Source of the DNA: Desmodesmus armatus
Lineage: Eukaryota; Chlorophyta; Chlorophyceae; Sphaeropleales; Scenedesmaceae
Assembly (NCBI GenBank): GCA_007449985.2
Contig: VIIQ02000067.1
Coordinates: 62,001 to 126,000 of the forward strand
Reading direction: 5' to 3'
Length of the DNA stretch: 64,000 bases
Part shown: piece by piece, positions 6,601 through 57,222 of the stretch
How positions within the stretch are numbered: the first letter of the stretch is position 1
Layout: each line of letters starts with the position of its first letter
Notes under the pieces: model-generated
Databases searched by the model: none
The model's input: only the letters and a program-made list of their open reading frames with translations
Told to the model about the DNA's origin: nothing
Program-made: the position numbers and the translations under genes

Positions 6601-9600
6601 CAACAGTGTGTGCTGGATATCCAACAGGTTCGTCCCATACGAGCAACAACGCAAGCAACCCGGTTCAACTTGTTGCTATGTGTTCAGCAAGTACCATTGC
6701 TCCTGATGCTCCAGTGCAGTCCATCTAGTGGTCTGCTGCCGATGCATGCACACATGCACACACTCCCTGTGTCTACACATGCTGCCCATGCTCCCTGTGT
6801 CTACACATGCTGCCCATGCTCCCTGTGTCTACACATGCTGCCCATGCTCCCTGTGTCTACACATGCTGCCCATGCTCCCTGTGTCTACACATGCTGCCCA
6901 TGCTCCCTGTGTCTACACATGCTGCCCATGCTCCCTGTGTCTACACATGCTGCCCATGCTCCCTGTGTCTACACATGCTGCCCATGCTCCCTGTGTCTAC
7001 ACATGCTGCCCATGCTCCCTGTGTCTACACATGCTGCCCATGCTCCCTGTGTCTACACATGCTGCCCATGCTCCCTGTGTCTACACATGCTGCCCATGCT
7101 CCCTGTGTCTACACATGCTGCCCATGCTCCCTGTGTCTACACATGCTGCCCATGCTCCCTGTGTCTACACATGCTGCCCATGCTCCCTGTGTCTACACAT
7201 GCTGCCCATGCTCCCTGTGTCTACACATGCTGCCCATGCTCCCTGTGTCTACACATGCTGCCCATGCTCCCTGTGTCTACACATGCTGCCCATGCTCCCT
7301 GTGTCTACACATGCTGCCCATGCTCCCTGTGTCTACACATGCTGCCCATGCTCCCTCACCAGCACCCAACTTGTTGGCCTCGTTGAAGCCCTGCAGCACG
7401 CCCAGCACGGCACACACCAGGCCATCAGCTGTCAGCCCCAACATGCTGCCAAAACCCACACCTCCATACCACTTGACTTCCCACGCGATGCTGTCCGTTA
7501 GAGCCTGAGCGGCTGCAACAGGGCCAGAGATGCAGTCAACCGTGTGTTTGACGGGCGTGGCACCTCCTGCTGATCTGGATCGTCTGCATGCATGCTCATG
7601 ACCTCGTGCAGGCTGCTGCCTCAGCTCACCTGTGTGGCTGCAGCAAGCTCCCCATAGGCGTAGGTGCGCCCTGGCGTGCCTTGCCACGTGGCGTTTGCAG
7701 CACTGGGGGAACCGGGAGCTGAGAGGTCGCTGTCATTACCCTGCGCCAAGGGGGGGGGGGGGCGCAGGAAACAAGACCAGCATCAGATGACAGGCCATGC
7801 AGTCCCTTTCAAACTGCAGGTGACTGTGTGACTGGCACAAAGCAGCAGCCCAGTGACTGAGCCCTCCAAAAGCTGCAACAAGAAGCCAACGATGTGGGAA
7901 AGGCCAAAACAGCAATGCTGTATGCACCCACTCAGGATCGAACTGAGGACCTTTCGCGTGTAAGGCGAGTGTGATAACCAACTACACCATAGGTGCGGAA
8001 AAGCTGTAACCGTGGCTAATTTTGCAGTTTATCAATGTCCGGACGCCATTTTTCGGTTTTTAAAAGTTCCGCGTCAATGGCGCCGCGCACCGAGGTTTCC
8101 GCCCCTTCTGCAGATTAAATACACGTTGATCTTGCTTGCTGCCGATTTGTGGCCGTATTGGCGGGGTTGGTGGTGCCATCAGGTACATGCAGGCAGTGAC
8201 TTGATCAGGGTGCTCAGGTCGGCTTATTGTCTGGATTGACAGGCCCCAATGTAACACAAATCATCATCGTCATCATCAGCCATGGCTGGGCTGGGCCTGC
8301 TTGGTGATCGTGCTGCCTTAGGCATCAGGGTTTTTCAGCAGCCATTTGCTTTGACAGGGGCGCCCCGTGAACTCTAAGTATTTGCCGGGGGCTTCGCCCC
8401 CGGCACATCCAGGGTACATCATGGTTTCACGGGGGTTCCAGGGGTTGGCCCCAGCTGTGCCAGGGTAACTGGCTTTCTGTAAGACAACAGGCCACGCAGG
8501 GACCTCCAGCGGCACTTTTAGCAGCAAATTCGCTATTTTACCTCGTAAAATGACCATTTTGCACTGCGTTGGGGATGAATGCAGCAAGATACGCTCCCCG
8601 GGAAAACAGCGATCGGTAGCGTTTTTCGGCGGGGTGCCCCCGACGGGCTCAGCCACGTTGCAAGGGTAAGCAGCGTGAACAGCTCCATTTCACGGGGTAC
8701 CCCGCGGGGGTGAATAACCCTGTTAGGCATGACGCAGGCTAAGTCACCTTTGTGTCCTACAGGTGGTTGGGCTGCCTTGAGGTTAGACCAAAATGGTGGT
8801 TGGATGCTGGCAATGATGGGGAGATGTGCACCTTGTTTAACCATCATTGCCACGCCCCCCCCCCCCAAAGCCTGCTCACCTTGCCCGGGGGTTTAGGTAT
8901 GAGCCCAGTCAGCAGCTGCTTCGCTCCCGCAACTGCAATGCTGCCCACAGCACCCGCTACCTTGCCTGCCCCTGACACAGCCGCACCAACTGCTGCGTTG
9001 ACATTCAGCGATTGCCCCTGCTTGTCACGTGGCCCATGGCCAGGCCTGGAGGCTGAAGGCCTGCGAGACAGCCCGGGGTCACACGTTTGGGGCAGCAGTG
9101 ACAGCCACAGCAACAGCAACATACGTACATGGGGGCCGTCATGACTGCTGTGCAGTCACCCACCCAATACGCCTGACTTCCTAGGTCATCTCTCCCGTTT
9201 TGTTCAACAGCAACACACGCCAGCAGCAGCCAGGCAGCAGCTACTTGCAGCCACAGGGAGGGGAAGGAGGGGCGGCGAGAGACAGACAGGGACGGGAGGG
9301 GGGGGGGGCACACAGATGCTTCATGTTGCCAATGGCATGGCCCAACTTGCAGGTGCTGGCTGTCATCACCACCCAGACCACGACCCCACCCACCCACCAT
9401 CTCAGCCAGTCAGTGCACCTGATTGCCTACCCACCACGCCCCGCCAGTCTGTCTGCCTGTCTGTCTCCACTCCCTGCCCCCTACACCTCCTTGCATTGCA
9501 GGCCAGCCTGTCTGCAAGCCCTCACACCCCCCTGCTGGCTGCCTTGCCTGCTCCCCTCCTACCTTGTGTCATCACCACCCCAGTCGTCGTCACTGCCTCC

Positions 9601-22942: not shown

Positions 22943-24503
22943 ATGTCTGTTGCCATGGCCCCAATCGTCGACGTGATGGCCACCAGCCCCACCAAGAAAC
23001 AGGACATTGGCAGGAAGGGCATGATCAGGTCCCTGTCTCAGCCAAACCTGACTGAGGTGTGCCACGCTATCGCCTTGCTCGGCCCCGTGGCTACGCTGAA
23101 GAAGTAAGTTTCGGTTCAATGCTCCAAACGTTTGGTTGATCTTCACACCGCGCAACGAGGCAGTATGAGCAGTGTACTGGGTCTGGCAGCCACTGTCTGT
23201 GTGACAGCAGCAGACTCCAATGAATCATGGCTTCCCCGCTGTATCTACGATGCTACAACGGGTGTCGAAGCTTTAACAGACAACAGCCCGTACAAATGCC
23301 CATCATGCCTTGTGCCAATGCCATTGCTGTGTCTGCAGCCCCTGCCAAACACTTGCCGCGACTGAGGAGTTGGCGCACCTCACACGCAAGGCGGGCAATC
23401 GCAAGGCAGTGATGGCCACCCCTCGTGCGGTCTCCACTCTTGTCAGCATGCTCAGCAGCACCGACCTGGTGTGCCAGAGGCATGCTGCTGCAGCCGTGCA
23501 GAACCTTGCCATTGAGCCAGAGCACTGCCAGGAGATGCTTGCAGCCGGCTGTATGACCCCCCTGCTGCAGATGCTGCATGCCCCGGATGACAGTGAGGCC
23601 CTGCTGGCCGCAGCAGCAGGAGCTCTGTCCAACCTGTCCTATGACGCAGGCTCCTGCAGCACCATTGCTGCCTCCCGTGGCAGCGTGGATCGCCTGGTCA
23701 GCCTGCTGTCGCACAGCAGCTGTGTGGTGCGAGAGGCAGCCGCCAGTGTGCTGGCCAAGCTGGCGTGGGAGCCAGAGCTGTGCAAGCCCATCGCAGGTGC
23801 GAGCCATGCCCGCTGCAGGAATGATATTTGTTCCATAATGCAGTACACATGCATGCATTACTGTGAGTTGCAGCTGACAAGGTTCAACTGCACTGGGTAT
23901 GCTTGCACAGCATGTCCACTCCTATTGTAGCTGCGACGTGGATGTACAAGGTGGCACTGATGTGTCAGCCGCGTAACTGCACACTCATCAAGCTGTGGCT
24001 TCTGCTGCTTTGCTGCCTGGTCCTCTTTCCCCTCCTTCGCAGATGCTGGGGCCGTGAAGCCTCTGGTGTCCCTGCTGTCCACAGACATCAGTGATGATGG
24101 CGGCCGTCAGGTGGCCGCTGCTGCCATCGAGAACCTCACCTACGACAGCCCAGCCATCCGCAAGTCCGTGGTGGACGCCGGCGGCCTGCCCATGCTGGTC
24201 TCCCTTCTGGAGAGCGAGTCCGAGTCAGCACAGCGCTCCGCTGCTGGCGCCCTGCACAACCTGGCCCTGGCGCGCGCCAACTGTGAGAAGATTGCCGCTG
24301 CTGGGGGCATTGAGCCCCTGGTGGAGTTGCTGGAGACAGGGCCAGAGGCTGTGCAGGCAGTGGCAGGGGGTACCCTAGGCAAGCTTGCGTTGGACCCTGC
24401 CAACAGGGCTGAGATTGTGGAGTGCCGTGAGAAGCTCTTTGAAAGCGACAGCAAGTCCCAGGGCTCCTCCAGCAGCTGTGCTGGCTGCGACTACAAGCAG
24501 TAA
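22943..24503 (+). CDS. Armadillo-repeat protein
   Basis: Exons 22943-23103, 23339-23796 and 24043-24503 sum to 1080 bases (359 aa). The start is ATG 22943 (MSVAMAPIVDVMATSP); a second in-frame ATG follows four codons later. From about residue 65 to 340 the protein is a run of about 42-residue armadillo repeats: RHAAAAVQNLAIEPEHCQEM, AAAGALSNLSYDAGSCSTIA, REAAASVLAKLAWEPELC, AAAIENLTYDSPAIRKSVV, RSAAGALHNLALARANCEKI and AVAGGTLGKLALDPANRAEI. The tail is Ser-rich and Cys-containing (SSSSCAGCDYKQ). Armadillo folds are protein-binding scaffolds. Nothing points to a specific partner, and I do not assign a named family. Confidence 0.9.
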
Positions 24504-41800: not shown

Positions 41801-43311
41801 GAACTTCAAGAGATCCGCTATGATTCAAAGAAGCACCCCTACCTGCTGTTGAGCACCGTCAAGGACTGGCAGGTAAGAAGCGACGGGCCTCATGCCACTG
41901 AGACAGCGGCACAAGCTTGATCAACCCCTTTTCCACTTTGAAGCCGCCACCCAATCAACTTGGCGCACCAGCAGTTTGCACCCGCTCATCCTCATTGCTG
42001 TATTGATTATGCACACAGGAGTGCACTGGAAACCCCAAGCAAGAAGCTGCGGGCTTCCCATGCCTCGCCCAAACAGCAGCCTTTGACGATGTGGCTGCCC
42101 TCACCAAAGATTATGTCATCAACATCATCGTTGGCGGCTCCATCTTTCCAAAGTGAGTGAGCATCTTTCCAAAGTGAGTGAGCATCGTTGAATTGGTTTG
42201 CTGTTGTGGGTGATGTTGCGACAGCTGACAGACAGTTGGATGATCCTGAATGTACAGGGGTAGTAGTGTTGTCATTGTTCCGACAGGGCTGGAAAAGTAA
42301 TGTATTGTCTAGGAAGGTTGGTTAACCAGCCCGGGTTCTGCCCATCTTCGAGGCAGCTGCAGTATGTGGGTGGGGTACGGGCTCAACCAACTTTGCAAAG
42401 TGCTGTCATATTGCAAGCTTACACTGGCAGGGCTGGCCTATGTTGGTTTCCAGGCGCCTCGAGGCAAGAGCTCTTTTGGACGTCATTCCTCCTTATTGTG
42501 ACCTTGTCCCGCCTGTGCAGGTGGTGCAACAGCACTGAGGAAGAGGCTTGCAGCAGTCTGTATGCAGGATACACCGGCTCTATTGGACCTTGGTAAGCAA
42601 GGAAGAGTTGTCGCTTTTATAGCGTGGTGCTTATCACAGATCCGCAAGGAACCTTCATGCACAGGCCGGGGGCCCTAACATGAGCTCTATCGGCACTTCA
42701 CAACGCGTGGGCGGGCAGATTAGCCATCAGCAGCTTGGTCACACGTTTGTGTTGACCTTGAATATGTGGCACATTGTCAACGCCCATGCAGGTTCGCGCG
42801 CCCATCTTCGACGTGGTCGGAAGATTCGGTCACGGAGAACTGGATCACCATCACGTGGGACGAGTTCACGCCAGCGGCCCGAAACTCCAAGCGCTTTTGG
42901 GACGGCGGGGGCATCACCGTGGCGCACGAGCTGGGTCACTACCTCGGCCTCATGCACACTCACGAAGGTGCGGTGCCCTGCGAAGGCGACGGGCTTACGA
43001 AAGCCGATGCCGTGCCCGACACGCCGGTCAACTTGCAGACCGCGCAGTGGGCTGCGAAGAACGGTTTGGCCGTGAAGCTATCTCGGTGGTGCACACAGTT
43101 CAGGGAGGGGAAGAAGCCCACGCCAAGGGAGCTGCTGGCGTTCAAGAGCTGCAAGCAGGATTACTTGGCCATCGACAATGTTTTTAATCTGCTGAGTTAC
43201 CTGCCTGATCAGTGCTGTATGATGATGACTGCAAACCAAGTTGCACGGTTGCAGTGGGCTATCGCCAAGTTCAGGCCCAAGATGATGGCCAAGTATGCTG
43301 TTGCAGCATGA
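38829..43311 (+). CDS. Membrane-anchored M43 (pappalysin-like) zinc metalloprotease
   Basis: Exons: 38829-38835 (tentative start), 38927-38968, 39205-39447, 39757-40157, 40556-40991, 41303-41414, 41797-41872, 42019-42152, 42521-42592, 42792-43311. They sum to 2043 bases (680 aa) in consistent phase. A single N-terminal helix, GIGLLLLAVGFVAGWF, preceded by basic residues suggests a type II membrane anchor with the catalytic domain outside or luminal. The last exon holds the zinc site ITVAHELGHYLGLMHTHEG (HExxHxxGxxH, metzincin). It is followed by a Cys-containing segment and NVFNLLSYLPDQC...MTANQVARLQWA, matching the M43 C terminus. In M43 enzymes the Met-turn is usually MSY; here it reads LSY. 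M43 proteases cleave secreted or surface proteins. The tiny first exon (ATGCAAA|GTGAGC) is inferred, and the true start could be further upstream. The final exon looks richer in CpG than the rest. Confidence 0.82.
42141..42182. repeat. 21-bp tandem duplication spanning a 5' splice site
   Basis: CATCTTTCCAAAGTGAGTGAG occurs twice in a row, so the donor AA|GTGAGT of the exon at 42019-42152 is duplicated 21 bases downstream. Use of the second copy would bring an in-frame TGA (CCA AAG TGA) into the message. Confidence 0.9.
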
Positions 43312-44601: not shown

Positions 44602-47600
44602 TCACTTCCTGCCCGACAGATTGTCAATCCTGTCTGGCAAGACAAAATCGAAATTCCCTATTCCAGAGCGTGCCTGTCCACTCTGACCAGATTGCGCAGC
44701 TGCACGCTTCTGTCCGGCAGCTTGTGGCTTCTGCCCAGCCGTGGTAGTCTGATTCCTGGCTGCCTCAGGGCTCTTGGCAGGGGCAGTTGGCGTGCCCTTG
44801 GCTGGCTGCTGGGGCTTGGCAGCTGCCTGTTGACCCTGGTCCTTGCTTGTGGTTTGGCCACTTGGTGGTGTGACAGCAGGGGGAGAGGGTGCCAGCAGTG
44901 CGCGCCTGCAACCACGGGGGTCAGCGGCGATTACCTGAGATGGGTCAGACGTTGACAGAAAGGGTATGTGTTGGCACAAGGTATACGGTGTGCAGCACGC
45001 AGCATACGGTGCGGAGCACGCAGCATACGATGCGGAGCTCGCAGCATGGGCACCCTGTGAATGATATGCCTGCGTTGATGCAGTCAGTAGCTGCAAAGTG
45101 GGTGAAGTGCAGGTCACTGCAGGCGCTGCAGTTGTGCAGATTGCACCTGACGACTCCCCCACCTATCTGGCACGACATTACCATAACAGCACTTCGTCTG
45201 CAAATGCATCCGCACTGGTTGTTCAGAAACCGTCAGTTGTGCGGCTGGCAACCACAGCTGTTACAATAGTCAAGTTTGACGACGGTCGTGGCTGGCTACT
45301 GAGGCTGTCAGCATATTCAACCACAGTCATGGCAGCTACTGAGGGCAACCAAGCCACTCCGGGTAACGTCTGTGCACCTACCTGCGTCCGTTCATGTTGA
45401 CTGAAGGCCTGTCAGGCTCAAGGAACTCAAACCTGCCAATGCCGGGGCGAGCACCCGCACCAGCTGGGGCAGGGGCAGCAGTGGTTCTGGCTGCGCCAGT
45501 GGGAGCTGTCCTGCCACCTCCAGCGACAGGGACAGGGACTGGGGCAGCAGGTGCACGGGTGCCGGGCTTAGGTGCAGCCTTGGCAGGTGCTGCAGGTGAT
45601 GGGGTGCCGGGCTTAGGTGCAGCCTTGGCAGGTGCTGCAGGTGATGGGGCTGGCTTGGCGGTGGGGCCAGGGGCAGGGGCCTTGGGGGCTGGGGTCTGTT
45701 GCAGCCTGTGGGGCGACAGCATTGGAAACAGCGCGTCAGCGCCATGACGTACCATATAGCAGATGGCCTCAAGGCGCAGGCAAGGTGCTTGCCCTAGGGG
45801 CTGCTTACTAACACAGCTGTGTCAAGAGCCGTGCCTAGCTGTTTAGGCTGAGAGTATGTTGAGACCACAATCATGTGTTACAGATTTGTGTGTTGTCAGC
45901 ATCAAGCATCGTGTGCAGGCATGCTGATTGTGTGGAGTACAGACGGCTGTGCAGCATGATGTCGATGGCGGGCCGGCCTTGTGGTTGAAAGTGCTACCCG
46001 GTCCCTGCAGCTTGGCCTGTCACTGCGACATGTGACGTGCTACTGTACAAAGTTGGGGTTGTACAATGGTAACATACTGCGCTGCTACAACAGCAACTCA
46101 GGGCAACCAAGCCACTCCGGGTAACGTCTGTGCACCTACCTGCGTCCGTTCATGTTGACTGAAGGCCTGTCAGGCTCAAGGAACTCAAACCTGCCAATGC
46201 CGGGGCGAGCACCCGCACCAGCTGGGGCAGGGGCAGCAGTGGTTCTGGCTGCGCCAGTGGGAGCTGTCCTGCCACCTCCAGCGACAGGGACAGGGACTGG
46301 GGCAGCAGGTGCACGGGTGCCGGGCTTAGGTGCAGCCTTGGCAGGTGCTGCAGGTGATGGGGTGCCGGGCTTAGGTGCAGCCTTGGCAGGTGCTGCAGGT
46401 GATGGGGCTGGCTTGGCGGTGGGGCCAGGGGCAGGGGCCTTGGGGGCTGGGGTCTGTTGCAGCCTGTGGGGCGACAGCATTGGAAACAGCGCGTCAGCGC
46501 CATGACGTACCATATAGCAGATGGCCTCAAGGCGCAGGCAAGGTGCTTGCCCTAGGGGCTGCTTACTAACACAGCTGTGTCAAGAGCCGTGCCTAGCTGT
46601 TTAGGCTGAGAGTATGTTGAGACCACAATCATGTGTTACAGATTTGTGTGTTGTCAGCATCAAGCATCGTGTGCAGGCATGCTGATTGTGTGGAGTACAG
46701 ACGGCTGTGCAGCATGATGTCGATGGCGGGCCGGCCTTGTGGTTGAAAGTGCTACCCGGTCCCTGCAGCTTGGCCTGTCACTGCGACATGTGACGTGCTA
46801 CTGTACAAAGTTGGGGTTGTACAATGGTAACATACTGCGCTGCTACAACAGCAACTCAGGGCAACCAAGCCACTCCGGGTAACGTCTGTGCACCTACCTG
46901 CGTCCGTTCATGTTGACTGAAGGCCTGTCAGGCTCAAGGAACTCAAACCTGCCAATGCCGGGGCGAGCACCCGCACCAGCTGGGGCAGGGGCAGCAGTGG
47001 TTCTGGCTGCGCCAGTGGGAGCTGTCCTGCCACCTCCAGCGACAGGGACAGGGACTGGGGCAGCAGGTGCACGGGTGCCGGGCTTAGGTGCAGCCTTGGC
47101 AGGTGCTGCAGGTGATGGGGTGCCGGGCTTAGGTGCAGCCTTGGCAGGTGCTGCAGGTGATGGGGCTGGCTTGGCGGTGGGGCCAGGGGCAGGGGCCTTG
47201 GGGGCTGGGGTCTGTTGCAGCCTGTGGGGCGACAGCATTGGAAACAGCGCGTCAGCGCCATGACGTACCATATAGCAGATGGCCTCAAGGCGCAGGCAAG
47301 GTGCTTGCCCTAGGGGCTGCTTACTAACACAGCTGTGTCAAGAGCCGTGCCTAGCTGTTTAGGCTGAGAGTATGTTGAGACCACAATCATGTGTTACAGA
47401 TTTGTGTGTTGTCAGCATCAAGCATCGTGTGCAGGCATGCTGATTGTGTGGAGTACAGACGGCTGTGCAGCATGATGTCGATGGCGGGCCGGCCTTGTGG
47501 TTGAAAGTGCTACCCGGTCCCTGCAGCTTGGCCTGTCACTGCGACATGTGACGTGCTACTGTACAAAGTTGGGGTTGTACAATGGTAACATACTGCGCTG

Positions 47601-50600
47601 CTACAACAGCAACTCAGGGCAACCAAGCCACTCCGGGTAACGTCTGTGCACCTACCTGCGTCCGTTCATGTTGACTGAAGGCCTGTCAGGCTCAAGGAAC
47701 TCAAACCTGCCAATGCCGGGGCGAGCACCCGCACCAGCTGGGGCAGGGGCAGCAGTGGTTCTGGCTGCGCCAGTGGGAGCTGTCCTGCCACCTCCAGCGA
47801 CAGGGACAGGGACTGGGGCAGCAGGTGCACGGGTGCCGGGCTTAGGTGCAGCCTTGGCAGGTGCTGCAGGTGATGGGGTGCCGGGCTTAGGTGCAGCCTT
47901 GGCAGGTGCTGCAGGTGATGGGGCTGGCTTGGCGGTGGGGCCAGGGGCAGGGGCCTTGGGGGCTGGGGTCTGTTGCAGCCTGTGGGGCGACAGCATTGGA
48001 AACAGCGCGTCAGCGCCATGACGTACCATATAGCAGATGGCCTCAAGGCGCAGGCAAGGTGCTTGCCCTAGGGGCTGCTTACTAACACAGCTGTGTCAAG
48101 AGCCGTGCCTAGCTGTTTAGGCTGAGAGTATGTTGAGACCACAATCATGTGTTACAGATTTGTGTGTTGTCAGCATCAAGCATCGTGTGCAGGCATGCTG
48201 ATTGTGTGGAGTACAGACGGCTGTGCAGCATGATGTCGATGGCGGGCCGGCCTTGTGGTTGAAAGTGCTACCCGGTCCCTGCAGCTTGGCCTGTCACTGC
48301 GACATGTGACGTGCTACTGTACAAAGTTGGGGTTGTACAATGGTAACATACTGCGCTGCTACAACAGCAACTCAGGGCAACCAAGCCACTCCGGGTAACG
48401 TCTGTGCACCTACCTGCGTCCGTTCATGTTGACTGAAGGCCTGTCAGGCTCAAGGAACTCAAACCTGCCAATGCCGGGGCGAGCACCCGCACCAGCTGGG
48501 GCAGGGGCAGCAGTGGTTCTGGCTGCGCCAGTGGGAGCTGTCCTGCCACCTCCAGCGACAGGGACAGGGACTGGGGCAGCAGGTGCACGGGTGCCGGGCT
48601 TAGGTGCAGCCTTGGCAGGTGCTGCAGGTGATGGGGTGCCGGGCTTAGGTGCAGCCTTGGCAGGTGCTGCAGGTGATGGGGCTGGCTTGGCGGTGGGGCC
48701 AGGGGCAGGGGCCTTGGGGGCTGGGGTCTGTTGCAGCCTGTGGGGCGACAGCATTGGAAACAGCGCGTCAGCGCCATGACGTACCATATAGCAGATGGCC
48801 TCAAGGCGCAGGCAAGGTGCTTGCCCTAGGGGCTGCTTACTAACACAGCTGTGTCAAGAGCCGTGCCTAGCTGTTTAGGCTGAGAGTATGTTGAGACCAC
48901 AATCATGTGTTACAGATTTGTGTGTTGTCAGCATCAAGCATCGTGTGCAGGCATGCTGATTGTGTGGAGTACAGACGGCTGTGCAGCATGATGTCGATGG
49001 CGGGCCGGCCTTGTGGTTGAAAGTGCTACCCGGTCCCTGCAGCTTGGCCTGTCACTGCGACATGTGACGTGCTACTGTACAAAGTTGGGGTTGTACAATG
49101 GTAACATACTGCGCTGCTACAACAGCAACTCAGGGCAACCAAGCCACTCCGGGTAACGTCTGTGCACCTACCTGCGTCCGTTCATGTTGACTGAAGGCCT
49201 GTCAGGCTCAAGGAACTCAAACCTGCCAATGCCGGGGCGAGCACCCGCACCAGCTGGGGCAGGGGCAGCAGTGGTTCTGGCTGCGCCAGTGGGAGCTGTC
49301 CTGCCACCTCCAGCGACAGGGACAGGGACTGGGGCAGCAGGTGCACGGGTGCCGGGCTTAGGTGCAGCCTTGGCAGGTGCTGCAGGTGATGGGGTGCCGG
49401 GCTTAGGTGCAGCCTTGGCAGGTGCTGCAGGTGATGGGGCTGGCTTGGCGGTGGGGCCAGGGGCAGGGGCCTTGGGGGCTGGGGTCTGTTGCAGCCTGTG
49501 GGGCGACAGCATTGGAAACAGCGCGTCAGCGCCATGACGTACCATATAGCAGATGGCCTCAAGGCGCAGGCAAGGTGCTTGCCCTAGGGGCTGCTTACTA
49601 ACACAGCTGTGTCAAGAGCCGTGCCTAGCTGTTTAGGCTGAGAGTATGTTGAGACCACAATCATGTGTTACAGATTTGTGTGTTGTCAGCATCAAGCATC
49701 GTGTGCAGGCATGCTGATTGTGTGGAGTACAGACGGCTGTGCAGCATGATGTCGATGGCGGGCCGGCCTTGTGGTTGAAAGTGCTACCCGGTCCCTGCAG
49801 CTTGGCCTGTCACTGCGACATGTGACGTGCTACTGTACAAAGTTGGGGTTGTACAATGGTAACATACTGCGCTGCTACAACAGCAACTCAGGGCAACCAA
49901 GCCACTCCGGGTAACGTCTGTGCACCTACCTGCGTCCGTTCATGTTGACTGAAGGCCTGTCAGGCTCAAGGAACTCAAACCTGCCAATGCCGGGGCGAGC
50001 ACCCGCACCAGCTGGGGCAGGGGCAGCAGTGGTTCTGGCTGCGCCAGTGGGAGCTGTCCTGCCACCTCCAGCGACAGGGACAGGGACTGGGGCAGCAGGT
50101 GCACGGGTGCCGGGCTTAGGTGCAGCCTTGGCAGGTGCTGCAGGTGATGGGGTGCCGGGCTTAGGTGCAGCCTTGGCAGGTGCTGCAGGTGATGGGGCTG
50201 GCTTGGCGGTGGGGCCAGGGGCAGGGGCCTTGGGGGCTGGGGTCTGTTGCAGCCTGTGGGGCGACAGCATTGGAAACAGCGCGTCAGCGCCATGACGTAC
50301 CATATAGCAGATGGCCTCAAGGCGCAGGCAAGGTGCTTGCCCTAGGGGCTGCTTACTAACACAGCTGTGTCAAGAGCCGTGCCTAGCTGTTTAGGCTGAG
50401 AGTATGTTGAGACCACAATCATGTGTTACAGATTTGTGTGTTGTCAGCATCAAGCATCGTGTGCAGGCATGCTGATTGTGTGGAGTACAGACGGCTGTGC
50501 AGCATGATGTCGATGGCGGGCCGGCCTTGTGGTTGAAAGTGCTACCCGGTCCCTGCAGCTTGGCCTGTCACTGCGACATGTGACGTGCTACTGTACAAAG

Positions 50601-53019
50601 TTGGGGTTGTACAATGGTAACATACTGCGCTGCTACAACAGCAACTCAGGGCAACCAAGCCACTCCGGGTAACGTCTGTGCACCTACCTGCGTCCGTTCA
50701 TGTTGACTGAAGGCCTGTCAGGCTCAAGGAACTCAAACCTGCCAATGCCGGGGCGAGCACCCGCACCAGCTGGGGCAGGGGCAGCAGTGGTTCTGGCTGC
50801 GCCAGTGGGAGCTGTCCTGCCACCTCCAGCGACAGGGACAGGGACTGGGGCAGCAGGTGCACGGGTGCCGGGCTTAGGTGCAGCCTTGGCAGGTGCTGCA
50901 GGTGATGGGGTGCCGGGCTTAGGTGCAGCCTTGGCAGGTGCTGCAGGTGATGGGGCTGGCTTGGCGGTGGGGCCAGGGGCAGGGGCCTTGGGGGCTGGGG
51001 TCTGTTGCAGCCTGTGGGGCGACAGCATTGGAAACAGCGCGTCAGCGCCATGACGTACCATATAGCAGATGGCCTCAAGGCGCAGGCAAGGTGCTTGCCC
51101 TAGGGGCTGCTTACTAACACAGCTGTGTCAAGAGCCGTGCCTAGCTGTTTAGGCTGAGAGTATGTTGAGACCACAATCATGTGTTACAGATTTGTGTGTT
51201 GTCAGCATCAAGCATCGTGTGCAGGCATGCTGATTGTGTGGAGTACAGACGGCTGTGCAGCATGATGTCGATGGCGGGCCGGCCTTGTGGTTGAAAGTGC
51301 TACCCGGTCCCTGCAGCTTGGCCTGTCACTGCGACATGTGACGTGCTACTGTACAAAGTTGGGGTTGTACAATGGTAACATACTGCGCTGCTACAACAGC
51401 AACTCAGGGCAACCAAGCCACTCCGGGTAACGTCTGTGCACCTACCTGCGTCCGTTCATGTTGACTGAAGGCCTGTCAGGCTCAAGGAACTCAAACCTGC
51501 CAATGCCGGGGCGAGCACCCGCACCAGCTGGGGCAGGGGCAGCAGTGGTTCTGGCTGCGCCAGTGGGAGCTGTCCTGCCACCTCCAGCGACAGGGACAGG
51601 GACTGGGGCAGCAGGTGCACGGGTGCCGGGCTTAGGTGCAGCCTTGGCAGGTGCTGCAGGTGATGGGGTGCCGGGCTTAGGTGCAGCCTTGGCAGGTGCT
51701 GCAGGTGATGGGGCTGGCTTGGCGGTGGGGCCAGGGGCAGGGGCCTTGGGGGCTGGGGTCTGTTGCAGCCTGTGGGGCGACAGCATTGGAAACAGCGCGT
51801 CAGCGCCATGACGTACCATATAGCAGATGGCCTCAAGGCGCAGGCAAGGTGCTTGCCCTAGGGGCTGCTTACTAACACAGCTGTGTCAAGAGCCGTGCCT
51901 AGCTGTTTAGGCTGAGAGTATGTTGAGACCACAATCATGTGTTACAGATTTGTGTGTTGTCAGCATCAAGCATCGTGTGCAGGCATGCTGATTGTGTGGA
52001 GTACAGACGGCTGTGCAGCATGATGTCGATGGCGGGCCGGCCTTGTGGTTGAAAGTGCTACCCGGTCCCTGCAGCTTGGCCTGTCACTGCGACATGTGAC
52101 GTGCTACTGTACAAAGTTGGGGTTGTACAATGGTAACATACTGCGCTGCTACAACAGCAACTCAGGGCAACCAAGCCACTCCGGGTAACGTCTGTGCACC
52201 TACCTGCGTCCGTTCATGTTGACTGAAGGCCTGTCAGGCTCAAGGAACTCAAACCTGCCAATGCCGGGGCGAGCACCCGCACCAGCTGGGGCAGGGGCAG
52301 CAGTGGTTCTGGCTGCGCCAGTGGGAGCTGTCCTGCCACCTCCAGCGACAGGGACAGGGACTGGGGCAGCAGGTGCACGGGTGCCGGGCTTAGGTGCAGC
52401 CTTGGCAGGTGCTGCAGGTGATGGGGTGCCGGGCTTAGGTGCAGCCTTGGCAGGTGCTGCAGGTGATGGGGCTGGCTTGGCGGTGGGGCCAGGGGCAGGG
52501 GCTTTGGCTGGAGGGGTCTGCTGCTGCAGTGCACGCCTGCATGTACAGTGGGCAACAGGTGGATACAGCAGGTGGTACAGCAGGTGGATCGGGCTGGGGC
52601 ACTTGGTGTGGAGCACCCCTCAAAGCTGCTGCAAACAGCGCGATAGCAGCAATGTATACGTATTGTTTCTCTGCGACAGCTGTGGCCGACGATCGCTGCT
52701 CAGAAACGAATGCGACCGTCTGCTGGCCCCTGTAGGGCACGCCAGGGCATCTGCAGGCCAGTCAGTACTGGGTAAGGCTGCATGCTCTATGAATACTAGA
52801 GCTGTCGTCTCATCTGTAGGCGTCCTACAGCCTAGAACCTTCGTTGGCCTGGCTGCAGCAGGCTGGGACCAAAAGTGCTGCGACCTGCATCTGCGGATGG
52901 CATGGGTCGTTGGCCCTACCCAAGTCCACTCTATCAGGAAGCACTCACTCTGCAGCGTGGACTGGTGATCCTGCCCATAAGGCTGCTATCACGAGAGTAC
53001 ACAAGATTATGGACTTCAT
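44602..53019 (-). CDS. Secreted modular repeat protein, candidate multicopy amidated-peptide precursor
   Basis: Exon 1 is 53019-52949 (signal peptide MKSIILCTLVIAALWAGS, then PVHAA). It ends in phase 2 and fits exon 2, 52536-52204. Nine exons of 324 bases with the same sequence follow at 758-base spacing, the first 51778-51446 equivalent and the last 45705-45382. The final exon is 44905-44602. The total is 3624 bases, 1207 aa. Every internal exon starts and ends in the same phase, so copies can be added without frame loss. Each 108-residue module has an Ala/Pro/Lys spacer containing PSPAAPAKAAPKPGT twice, then ARPGIGRFEFLEPDR, PSVNMN and GRR. The last module has a different Gln/Ala/Lys spacer but keeps ARSGIGNFDFVLPDR, IDNLS and GRK at the exact C terminus. 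Signal peptide, repeated core and Gly-basic-basic ends match precursors of amidated peptides. The AP/SP/TP-rich spacers also resemble arabinogalactan-type glycomodules. I recognise no named family. Confidence 0.8.
44983..45045. repeat. 21-bp tandem repeat, three copies
   Basis: ATACGGTGCGGAGCACGCAGC and two variants lie in the last intron (44906-45381) of the repeat-protein gene. Confidence 0.85.
45344..52500. repeat. 758-bp tandem array of exon-plus-intron cassettes
   Basis: Period 758 bases: each cassette is a 324-base exon plus a 434-base intron, with copy starts at 45382, 46140, 46898 and so on to 52204. All full copies read the same in exon and intron by eye. Similarity begins abruptly near 45344 (GGGCAACCAAGCC) and ends near 52500 (GGGGCAGGGGC). 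The outer exon at 52204-52536 differs only upstream of that edge. Perfect intron identity points to very recent amplification, ongoing homogenisation, or an assembly effect on copy number. Confidence 0.97.
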
Positions 53020-54007
53020 TGTGCCAAGTGGCCCTTGCAGACTGCCAAACAAGCAGATGGTGTTTGTTCTCGACTCCCGGTAGCCGAGAACCTTTATAGC
53101 GGGGCACGGAGACTGGTGTTCACCCTGGCTTGGAAGTGTGAAATCTCACACGAAAGGTGGTGGAAGGGTTGACGACCAAAGGTGGAAGGCCAGGTTGAAG
53201 GCGCAGAAACACCCACTGCACACGTCCTCTGATGCTATGAGGTCCATTAGGCCTGCAGATGGCCCTAAGGTCAAAGATTCCCAGGAACCTGGGTGACGGA
53301 TTGTGACCCGTGTCGCCTGTGCCTCGTGTAGTGGTTGGCCGGGCACGAATATGCAGGAGTAGCATATCATAATGCCAAACACTGGTATGTCCTGCTTATG
53401 ACCGTGCGTAATGCCCATTGTTGGGCAAATGCGTGATCAGAACCACTCTCATGCAGCCTGCACTTGGCACAGACGTCTGACAGGCGCAAAGCGTCTTGAA
53501 TGGTTGCTGCTTGTATATGGTAGCTTTGTCACGCCGCTTGCCTAGATGAAAGCGTGCACAACACCCAACTTTGGCCTTGAAGTTGCCGGGCCGGGTCATG
53601 CTCTGCTTTCAGTTGCTGGGCCACGCAGCTATCTACACCGGCTGAAGCAATGCACCTTCAAGCACCACAGCTCCGCAGCATACTCTTTGAGTCTCCCACT
53701 GCGCTCTCCTGTTGTATCTGCGGGGCTGCCGGAGTGGCAAGCCTTGCACTTGGAGGGAGCCTTGCACTCCTCTCATTGGGGGCATCGCCGCCTGATTTCG
53801 TTTAAGGCTGGTGCTGATTTGAGGCTGGGAAAGGGCCTGAACCACCCGATTCACCCAAATTATGGATGTGACGCTTGTTTTGCAAGAAGCCATTGCTCTG
53901 GTGCGTTCTGCATAGTTGCCCTGGACAGGGTAATACACAGGGTTGGGCTGCAGGGGGGACCCAAGTCTGTTGTTTTCTCCCGGCCCAACAACACCACACC
54001 TCGACTC
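53020..54007. promoter_or_regulatory. Upstream region of the repeat-protein gene
   Basis: About 990 bases between the repeat-protein start and the stop of the next minus-strand gene. It must contain that gene's 3' UTR and the repeat-protein promoter. A 235-aa plus-strand frame spans part of it but shows no recognisable domain. Confidence 0.4.
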
Positions 54008-57000
54008 CTAGGGGTCTTGCTTGTTCTGCTGCAGAGCAAGTCCTTGCAGCACATCATTCGTAGCGGCGACTGCAGCCCTAGCTCTGGCCATCATTGTTTG
54101 CAGGTCGTCTTTATCAACACCTGCATCACAGGGAGGTGGCTCGCCACATGCACTGCTGGGGGAGGGCAGCCCAGTATGCTGCACCTCTATGCCAGCATGT
54201 GCGACAGGCTCGTACGCGTCGGTCACGTTCACCCCAGGTGCAGCTGCTGCTGAGTCATCGGTCGCTGCCATCAGAGCCCGTGCCCGGGCCAGCAGCGCCT
54301 GCATGTCATCACCCCCAGGGAGCCCTGCCAAAGCAGCCGCTACACCCCCCTGCTCAGGTAGGGATGGTGCTGGCTGCTCCTGCTGCTGCTCCAGACCCTG
54401 CTGTGAGGCTGCCGGCACATGTGGGTCCTGGCACTGGCTGAGTTGTTGTCCCGCTTGCTGATGGAGCTGTGGCTGTGGCTGCTGCACCCTGGCGGCCCTG
54501 TCGCTTAGCACCACCCCATGGCGCTGGCTCAGCACAGCTGCACAGCCCTCGCACTCATACGCCACCTGCAGCTCGTAGCTGCCTGCCAGAAAGCGGATGC
54601 TGAAGTGCTCGTCCAGTTGTGCTATGATGTCTTCTGTGAGTGGTGCGCTGGGGGGCTTCCTGCACACCAAGTGAGCATGGGCAGCCAAGATTGTAGCAGC
54701 CACCAACACAGCAGGCTGTCGCTGCCAAAGGCCAGCGCACTGCACCTAGCGCTGGATGGTCTGCTGTTGATTATGTTGAAGAGGACAGTGTCCCTTGCCC
54801 CCACTTGGCACCCACCGCAACACAGGACTGTGAGCAACTTTGGAAACACCATGCAGCCTCACCTCCTGTTTGTGAAGCTGTGCGTCACTCGTCCGTCTGG
54901 TGCGTATGCCTTGCCGTCTTTCTTGTCCCACACCAGCATCAGCTGGCCGCTGGGCCACTGCACAAACCCCCCACTGCTGTCGAAGCTGGCTGCAACACCT
55001 GTGATGGAGCGATACATGGCCAACAGCCTGTAGCCCTTTATGGGAGGAGGTGTGCCGCTGCCAGTGCCGCTGCCAGTGCCGCTGCCAATGCTGCCTGCGG
55101 GTGGGGGCTCTTCTGCGTCTAGCGAGGCAGCCATGCTGCCTTCTGGCCAGGTGATGCTGGCACTGCCATCACTGTGGACCAGCACAGCGAGGCCACCTGA
55201 GGCTGTGTACCTGCAAGCCACAACATGACAGCAGCTACTGAGCTTCTTGCTGCACACCACTTGCAGCTGGTTGACCTGCAGGACTTTTCCAATGCTTCAC
55301 GAACCTCATGCAGTCAGTCTTGATGTTGCACAGCCCCTGCATGGCAAAGGGCTTGTCCTGCAGCAGATTCAGCATGCAACTCACGTCTGCTTCTGCAGGA
55401 CCTTGAGTGGCTTGGCCCTGCTGTAGCCAAACATGGATGGCTGTGGGGCCTCAACAGGCTTGCGCACCAAGCTGCTGGGCTTCAGGGGCTGCAGAGACAT
55501 GCTGGGCAGCATGCTGCTGATGTCCTGCAGACACATTACAAATGGTGTTCACCAGCGCCGGCAATGTCAGTACAAGTGATCGAGCACAGCTGGCCAACAT
55601 GCAGGATGAGGGTGTGCTGGCTGCAAGCTGCGACCAGGCCCAGACCGCACAATTCGTGCCGTGTGCGCCCATTCTGTACTCAATTGATCCTTGGCTGTCC
55701 CAGGCTGTTCAAAGGTGTTCCAGCAGCTCGCTTCAACTGTGCAAGATGGCTGGACGGCATGCACGCAGTCTAATTTTGCCCGAGAATCAAAGAAGGCCAT
55801 GGCAGGGTCACCTTGATACTCATGCTGTCGTCCTGTCCTGCAGATGGTACTCTGGGCCTCAGCCTGCCTGCACTGCTGCTGCTCCTGCTGGCCAGCCTGG
55901 CGCTGCCAGGTGGTGGTGTGAGGGAGCCTGTGTCACCCAGCAAATGCAGGTTCTATTGTGAGTCATCCTGAGCAGTCAAACAGACAGCTGCACTGCACGA
56001 GTCTTGCAGGCCCAGCACAGCTGCAGAGTGCCCATGCAGCCAGCACTGTTGAACTGCAGGAGCCGTGCTGGCACTGTGTGCACCATGCGATCTCCACATG
56101 CAGCGGCACACTAACAAGCCATGTCATGTACGCATGGATAAAAGGCTTGTGTGACAGCACTGGACATGCTTTGATGCTGCTGCAAGCGCGCTGACACATA
56201 TGACCAGGACCCCACTCTAGAGTACGCGCAACCACCAGAGAATTTCAGCATGCTGCTGCTTCAGCCGCTCACCGCTTGTCATGTCACCGCACTCACTGGC
56301 AGCGGCACTGTTGGAGTCTCTGGGAGTGCTGCTGCAGCTGTACTGCTGCTGCCCTGCCCCAGACCATACCTCCGCACATGCTGAGGCTGCTGCGCGCTGC
56401 TGAGCGGTGATGATGGTGCTGTCAAGGGCCTGCAGGAGGCGCACACAGTGAGTGGCAGCAACTGCAACCCAGTCAAGGTTGTTGTGCGCAACATGACTGT
56501 GCTAGGCAGTGGTTGGACTCAAGCCGCTGCAACACAACTGTAGTAGCAGCAGCCACAGTCTGCAGAGGCATGGTTCAGTGCATGCACTTTCCTGCAGGTT
56601 CAATAATGCTAACATCACGCTAGGTGCTGACCTGTAGGCTGGGCAAGACAGCGATTGTTGCGGCGTGCCAGTTGTCCTGCTTGCAAACTGGGTTCTTGCG
56701 CAAGGTAAGATGCTTCAGGCTGCTGAGCTGAGTGAGTGCCAGGACGCTGGCTGCTGTGCTGATGCTGTTGTTGTGGAGGGCCAGGAACTGCAAACCTGGC
56801 AGCTGCACCAGTGCATCTGTGCTGGTGATCCTGTTGTTGCTGCACACCAGCTGGGTGAGGGTCTGGCTGAGTGTTGTGAGCTCCTGTACGCTGACGAGCT
56901 TGTTGTGTGAGATGTTGAGGCTGCGCAGGCAGGGGAGGGCCTGGATGCCCTTAAGCTGTTGGAGTGAGTTGAAGCTGACGTTCAGGCTGGTCAAAGTCGT

Positions 57001-57222
57001 TAGGTGGGACAGCCCTGCAAGCGATGTCAAGTTCTGCACAGAGAGGACCAAGATACCAACACAAGCAGTAGACAGTCAGCCACCTTGGACACAGCAGATG
57101 CCAGCAGCAGCTTTGGGGGAACCAGGCTGCTTATACCTTACCTTGAAGCAGTATGAGAGGTCCTCGTCATCAAAGGATGTGCTGGGTAGGCCAGTCACTT
57201 GCTGAGAAGGTGCACAGGACAT
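54008..57222 (-). CDS. Leucine-rich repeat protein with FAM194-like domain
   Basis: Exons: 57222-57142, 57033-56632, 56429-56370, 55524-55402, 55357-55305, 55210-54863, 54659-54008 (1719 bases, 572 aa). The start is ATG 57222 (MSCAPSQQVTG). Residues about 28-160 form five to six LRRs of the short SDS22 type: LTTLTSLNVSFNSLQQLKGI, LPCLRSLNISHNKLVSVQEL, LTQLVCSNNRITSTDAL and LQFLALHNNSISTAASVL, capped by LRKNPVCKQDNWHAATIAVLP. A later part, CNIKTDCMRYTASGGLAVLV...GYRLLAMYRS...GFVQWPSGQLMLVWDKKDG, resembles the FAM194/ERICH6 beta-rich domain. The tail contains two copies of (A/T)LMARARA-like helices (MQALLARARALMAAT and LQTMMARARAAVAAT). SDS22-type LRRs with such domains are common in ciliary proteins, so a flagellar role is plausible but unproven. 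The donor after PLK (GTCCTG) is weak, and GTTCGT after DCM is unusual; both were chosen to keep phase. Confidence 0.7.

Follow-up and report, generated by a model that had tools for sequence, protein, structure and literature searches.

The minus strand of a 64-kb stretch of the Desmodesmus armatus genome (contig VIIQ02000067.1, positions 62,001 to 126,000; the window hereafter, numbered from its first nucleotide) carries, from 53019 to 44602, a 12-exon gene model with an open frame and a product of 1207 residues. An earlier note on this DNA, made from the letters alone, had read the gene as a multicopy precursor of secreted, amidated peptides. Its coordinates, motifs, copy numbers and terminal GRK-stop were reproduced by re-reading the minus strand, and the exon junction that it proposed (52949/52536) is as stated in the gene model, in phase and with GT-AG splice sites. 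All introns are GT-AG (11/11), and all internal exons both start and stop in phase 2. The product consists of a signal peptide, ten GIGRFEFLEPDRPSVNMN-GRR modules and an eleventh module that ends in GIGNFDFVLPDRIDNLS-GRK-stop. Judged from its sequence, this green-algal gene appears to encode an eleven-module secreted protein in which each module ends in the cut-and-cap signal known from animal peptide messengers.

Exon 1 (52949-53019) codes MKSIILCTLVIAALWAGSPVHAA, comprising the signal peptide MKSIILCTLVIAALWAGSPVHA-A, and closes at the phase-2 donor GTGAGT. An exact TATAAA string lies 79 nucleotides 5' of the ATG (53093-53098, minus strand) and is presumably a promoter element. The first copy of the repeated module, module A, occupies exon 2 (52204-52536, 333 nucleotides, ending in GIGRFEFLEPDRPSVNMNGR(R)) and is followed by nine identical 324-nucleotide module A exons, exons 3-11 (45382-51769), one per 758 bp, with starts at 51769, 51011, 50253, 49495, 48737, 47979, 47221, 46463 and 45705. 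The nine 434-nucleotide introns after exons 2-10 are likewise identical to one another. In the last module A the core, GIGRFEFLEPDRPSVNMNGR(R), lies at 45382-45443, and the other nine cores lie at steps of +758, the first starting at 52265. Exon 12 (44602-44905) encodes the final module, module B, whose core GIGNFDFVLPDRIDNLSGRK (44605-44664) is followed directly by the stop, whose spacer has no detectable similarity to that of A, and which contains a KR pair at residues 1173-1174. At every module A, translation that ran on through the 5' splice site (for example at 45383-45378, minus strand) would end in Gly-Arg-Arg-stop (AGG TAG), an ending partly dictated by a GTAG donor in phase 2. A TGTAA string in the repeat intron was considered as a notable signal and rejected, as 1218/5000 intron shuffles contain one.

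The hydropathy of the product reaches 2.81 at residues 3-14 and at most 1.08 beyond residue 40; we therefore call a signal peptide and no membrane span after it, both calls being by simple hydropathy rather than SignalP. Open mini-exons of 50-129 nucleotides that run from an ATG to a phase-2 donor number 30 with a strict donor definition and 60 with a loose one over both strands of the window. Two of them in 64 kb reach a 12-residue hydropathy of at least 2.5, namely exon 1 and one of poly-Leu low complexity. Neither the reading frames of the exons nor a shortened version of the precursor matched any Pfam family.

The repeated part of the gene is a tandem array (45342-52502) with a period of 758 bp and 9.45 copies, in which lag-758 identity extends over 7,161 bp with 0 mismatches; the flanks on both sides are non-repeated. 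The ten GIGRFEF modules and their introns are identical to each other, the start of the first module excepted. Since the array repeats without a mismatch, the ten A modules count once as evidence. The eleven copies described earlier are indeed present, but with ten of them amounting to one sequence they carry the weight of two independent modules. A degenerate DNA pattern for G-I-G-[R/N/K/S/H/Q]-F-[D/E]-F, which fixes G-I-G and the two Phe, admits six residues after G-I-G and would let looser relatives escape, has exactly 11 sites in the 115.8 Mb (831 contigs) of this genome, all of them in this gene; the reversed control pattern has 0.

The comparison that matters most is therefore that between modules A and B. 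Their cores share 13/24 aligned residues, with differing codons at 10 of the 13, and the core alignment scores 54 against a shuffle maximum of 42 (0/20,000 reach 54). Aligned in full, modules A and B score 122, the maximum among 5,000 shuffles being 109. The spacers score 72 against a shuffle mean of 63.3 (standard deviation 8.7), a value reached by 807/5000. Within the ungapped AR..GIG..PDR block of 15 codons, third positions hold 11/16 nucleotide differences (p = 0.004), and the Nei-Gojobori method gives a dN of 0.48 with dS saturated for this block. Over a 17-codon block the true frame shares 10/17 residues and the other five frames 2 to 7 of 16 or 17. Among the forward frames the real one alone crosses both cores without a stop: the +1 frame is interrupted in the B block and at 45394-45392 inside the module A core, and the +2 frame in both blocks.

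The module A spacer of 87 residues is Ala/Pro-rich (28 Ala and 24 Pro), with AP, SP and TP pairs. That the spacer had diverged completely while the core was kept, as the earlier note put it, is true of this part before the core; it does not apply to the stretch after PDR, where PSVNMN and IDNLS align as N-M-N and N-L-S ahead of GR[RK]. Homologues with conserved spacers and a lost core had been named as a finding that would count against the peptide, and inside this gene the opposite is found. Based on two modules of one gene, the selected part is probably the core together with its GR[RK] end, because the core alignment beats all shuffles and the spacers do not stand out.

The distribution of basic residues indicates where the precursor might be cut. 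G[KR][KR] occurs 11 times in the product, one per module (11/11), and the only other dibasic pairs are that formed by an R after the tenth GRR and the single KR at 1173; RX[KR]R sites are absent from the 1207 residues. Module A contains 14 basic residues, of which the last two alone are adjacent, these being the Arg pair of the GRR. Assuming removal of the signal peptide after residue 22 and cleavage after each GRR, the predicted pieces including their basic ends are 113, 9 x 108 and 100 residues long. As the sole dibasic pair of module A is that in the GRR, dibasic cutting alone would give products of about 105 residues and not 18-mers, and freeing an 18-mer would require an extra cut at the lone Arg that precedes P-GIG or S-GIG. 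Convertases cleave Arg-Pro poorly. The likely products, as predicted from the sequence, are thus glycopeptides of about 105 residues that carry the core as an amidated tail, rather than short peptides. Computed monoisotopic masses are 2076.021 for GIGRFEFLEPDRPSVNMN-NH2, 1692.793 for FEFLEPDRPSVNMN-NH2 and 1976.996 for SGIGNFDFVLPDRIDNLS-NH2.

Amidation would depend on PAM, and the note's point that green algae possess such enzymes is borne out in this same genome by a gene on contig C90 that matches both PF01082 and PF03712. Its PHM pieces have solved PHM as their top match (E 1e-30) and keep the HH, QVHY, HTH and EMCN-Y-M segments, which we take to be the copper ligands; its PAL exon likewise finds solved PAL as its top match (E 1.7e-13). 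When the exons were read by eye, the copper-binding segments, repeats of the PAL type and a hydrophobic stretch towards the C-terminus could be recognised, and the gene apparently encodes a full-length, bifunctional amidating enzyme. Among the best 120 of 2346 matches, similarity is 71% for the top match, followed by Tetradesmus obliquus (58%), Scenedesmus (57%), a transcriptome entry (56%), Monoraphidium (53%) and Raphidocelis (52%). This ranking puts the alga within the Sphaeropleales, near Scenedesmaceae. A further PAM-like protein, in each of Scenedesmus and Tetradesmus, is listed with PF01082 and PF01436 (NHL) and without PF03712; it may be a divergent paralogue of PAM. The Desmodesmus genome also contains 44 exon-level matches to the S8 peptidase domain and 11 to the M14 domain. 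In Chlamydomonas reinhardtii the S8 enzyme VLE1 is described as cleaving the amidated-peptide precursor proGATI (PMC10886904, a review), and two M14 CPB-like proteins have been described (PMC6313938).

Searches for relatives were made in a set of 5.8 billion proteins that includes C. reinhardtii entries. A one-module precursor (residues 108-235) drew 834 candidates, about 129-411 residues long, none at E<=1, and a four-module precursor (residues 440-559) drew 1109 candidates of about 307-978 residues, none at E<=10; a PAM control on the same set gave green-algal names on 13/20 top hits. Given the size of the set, a relative that shares just the core of about 20 residues would probably miss these E-values. 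In the Desmodesmus genome, a 125-residue protein query returned 20 matches, 11 in this gene and 9 elsewhere (E 0.07-7.8); these nine align with the spacer region of the query, with one, on contig C75, reaching back to query residue 10. Short core queries returned only self-matches (1 and 10), a route that is blind to paralogues as far apart as A and B, since the B query missed A and the A query missed B. Three motif strings appeared in no paper of a full-text collection of open-licence articles. Among the matches listed from it, judged by title and abstract start, there was no multicopy algal amidated precursor and nothing relevant on Sphaeropleales pheromones.

In layout, the gene resembles the animal multicopy neuropeptide precursors of the FMRFamide type, in which a signal peptide is followed by a repeated peptide, with Gly-basic-basic after each copy and PAM-dependent amidation. 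The shared signal peptide, repeats and recurrent Gly-basic-basic are put forward as a likeness of layout, not as homology; unlike those precursors, the algal product has 87-residue Pro/Ala-rich spacers, no dibasic site on the N-side of the core and one exon per module. Plant HypSys precursors, fungal kexin-processed repeat peptides and yeast alpha-factor also release several peptides from one secreted precursor, as proposed here, and HypSys is hydroxyproline-glycosylated. To our knowledge none of these, considered here by general layout, uses the Gly-directed amidation signal found in our gene. A Pro/Ala-rich secreted protein is also reminiscent of arabinogalactan proteins and of the volvocine pherophorins (PMC6313938), but the product has no pherophorin or other Pfam domain, no C-terminus of the glycosylphosphatidylinositol (GPI) type and a core that is not made of Pro repeats.

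Closer in kind are the amidated products of C. reinhardtii, a few of which make up algal amidated-peptide signalling so far, according to the papers cited here. ProGATI (Cre03.g204500) is Pro-rich and heavily glycosylated, has a -GRRR end and gives rise to a chemotactic tail that is amidated (PMC6919629, PMC10886904). Like it, our gene specifies a secreted green-algal precursor with Pro-rich linkers and a C-terminal signal of the Gly-Arg-Arg type, in a genome with PAM. Structure predictions underlie the description of proGATI as three folded domains and a single amidated end, in contrast to our eleven modules without a Pfam domain. The core gave no local alignment at E<=100 with the GATI 23-mer tail (the tail being compared, not full proGATI), and this comparison does not place the gene in the proGATI family. 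The Cre12.g487700 precursor, compared by its published description, resembles ours in its repeats and Pro-rich segments and has a C-terminal -GR amidation end, but its sole described amidated product is C-terminal (PMC10886904, PMC6919629). An eleven-module precursor would be unusual among these, since PMC6919629 (2019) states that the C. reinhardtii amidated precursors lack multiple copies of one peptide.

On balance, we lean slightly towards reading the gene as a secreted multicopy prohormone, Pro/Ala-rich and probably O-glycosylated, that is cut at Gly-Arg-Arg and amidated. The protein would enter the secretory pathway, its Pro/Ala/Thr spacers would be hydroxylated and O-glycosylated, a subtilisin-like protease would cut after each GRR, an M14 carboxypeptidase would trim the arginines and PAM would convert the Gly to the amide. 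The output would be ten glycopeptides of about 105 residues (the first of 110) that end in GIGRFEFLEPDRPSVNMN-NH2 and one product that ends in GIGNFDFVLPDRIDNLS-NH2, the latter shortened to a 30-mer by any cut at the KR at 1173. Activity and selection would reside in the amidated tail, whose dose would rise with the tandem amplification of module A. By analogy with GATI-amide, its role would most likely be that of a cell-cell signal around cilia or gametes, or in coenobium or daughter-cell formation. The amidated-precursor reading of the earlier note is partly upheld, as regards secreted anatomy, a conserved core with its Gly-basic-basic end and PAM in the genome. It loses the weight placed on eleven copies, which is that of two modules, and G(K/R)(K/R) by itself is common: it is reported in 331/771 C. 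reinhardtii signal-peptide proteins, C-terminal Gly(K/R)n being rarer at 24/771 (PMC6313938, PMC6919629).

Several observations speak against this prohormone reading. The convertase P-domain (P_proprotein) has 0 matches in the genome, and the product has no dibasic site just N-terminal of the core. Conservation is known from two modules of one gene, with no homologue found, and one reverse-strand frame, open across the block, shares 7/16 residues between A and B. Against a reference of 1,008 codons of domain-supported exons, the mean log relative synonymous codon usage of module A is 0.305 in the +1 frame and 0.102 in the coding frame, and its GC content at third positions is 0.74 and 0.51, respectively; module B is near neutral (-0.028 coding vs 0.065 and -0.042), and in the short exon 1 the coding frame has the lowest value (-0.322, against -0.172 and -0.136). 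With stop codons interrupting the +1 frame within the core regions of A and B, we ascribe this misfit to the shortness of the sequences and their richness in Pro and Ala, but one expected line of support is lost all the same. The closest TGTAA 3' of the stop is 787 nucleotides away.

The main alternative in kind is an arabinogalactan-type wall or matrix repeat protein, with the core as a binding or cross-linking motif, the GRR uncut and the repeats giving length and valency. The Ala and Pro content of the module A spacer fits this, as does the perfect homogenisation of the tandem repeats, which is usual in structural proteins, and the frequency of G(K/R)(K/R) in C. reinhardtii signal-peptide proteins given above points the same way. 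We nevertheless consider it unlikely: the core and GR[RK] are conserved between A and B where the spacers are not, the product terminates exactly at GRK, no Pfam domain such as the globular domain of pherophorins is present, and the C-terminus (...DNLSGRK) has no hydrophobic tail for a GPI signal. The note's arabinogalactan-like alternative fails as an exclusive one, since proGATI is itself Pro-rich and heavily glycosylated (PMC10886904). Distinctly improbable in our view is a long secreted protein amidated solely at its C-terminal GRK, comparable to proGATI with its -GRRR, in which the internal GRR are uncut and the repeats form a scaffold. C-terminal sites that need no endoprotease do give two of the three amidated C. 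reinhardtii mating-ectosome products described in PMC6919629. Against such a scaffold, the GRR directly follows the core in every module and other dibasic pairs are avoided, the ten A modules being one independent case.

Multicopy defence precursors exist, and the same chemistry could yield amidated host-defence or allelopathic peptides rather than a signal. Amidated peptides are described as serving in defence and venoms elsewhere (PMC10886904), but here the cores are acidic and aromatic (FEFLEPD, FDFVLPD) and not cationic amphipathic, and we give this role very little credence. It is no more plausible that the gene model or assembly is an artefact, with exon 1 misplaced, the array copy number wrong or the repeat noncoding. 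Assembly is difficult for ten near-identical copies of 758 bp, the frame is not favoured by codon usage, and the model itself is a prediction. These concerns are countered by canonical splice sites that are in phase, by a signal-peptide mini-exon that is rare yet in place, by the third-position excess between A and B, and by the non-repeated flanks on both sides within a 377-kb contig.

A bolder form of the prohormone reading, which we put forward tentatively as a minority possibility, is that an alga outside the Volvocales has a true multicopy, PAM-amidated messenger whose dose is set by tandem exon amplification and in which each module A is self-sufficient, the animal-style precursor having arisen independently or being far older than animals. 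If so, a transcript that retains, or is polyadenylated within, any of the ten introns after a module A would still encode an amidation-ready end, since reading past a module A donor yields Gly-Arg-Arg-stop. Were the prohormone reading confirmed, an animal-style multicopy peptide precursor would exist in an alga, and such a precursor with a defined core would offer a concrete candidate ligand for peptide signalling before nervous systems. It would also present an apparently recent exon amplification that alters the predicted peptide dose.

Other features of the window are of separate interest. Convergent with the peptide gene and downstream of it lies an exon of an M43 (pappalysin-like) metalloprotease (42724-43308, plus strand; HELGHYLGLMH, E 4.6e-8). 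A long low-complexity repeat at 6707-7498 (plus) with CVYTCCPCSL and VSTHAAHAP in overlapping open frames is likely to be non-coding tandem DNA. A tRNA-Val (TAC) was called at 7923-7996 (minus) by ARAGORN, with a tRNA call by Rfam too, exons of an Armadillo-repeat protein lie at 23277-24500 (plus), and an exon of a leucine-rich-repeat protein lies at 56623-57075 (minus).

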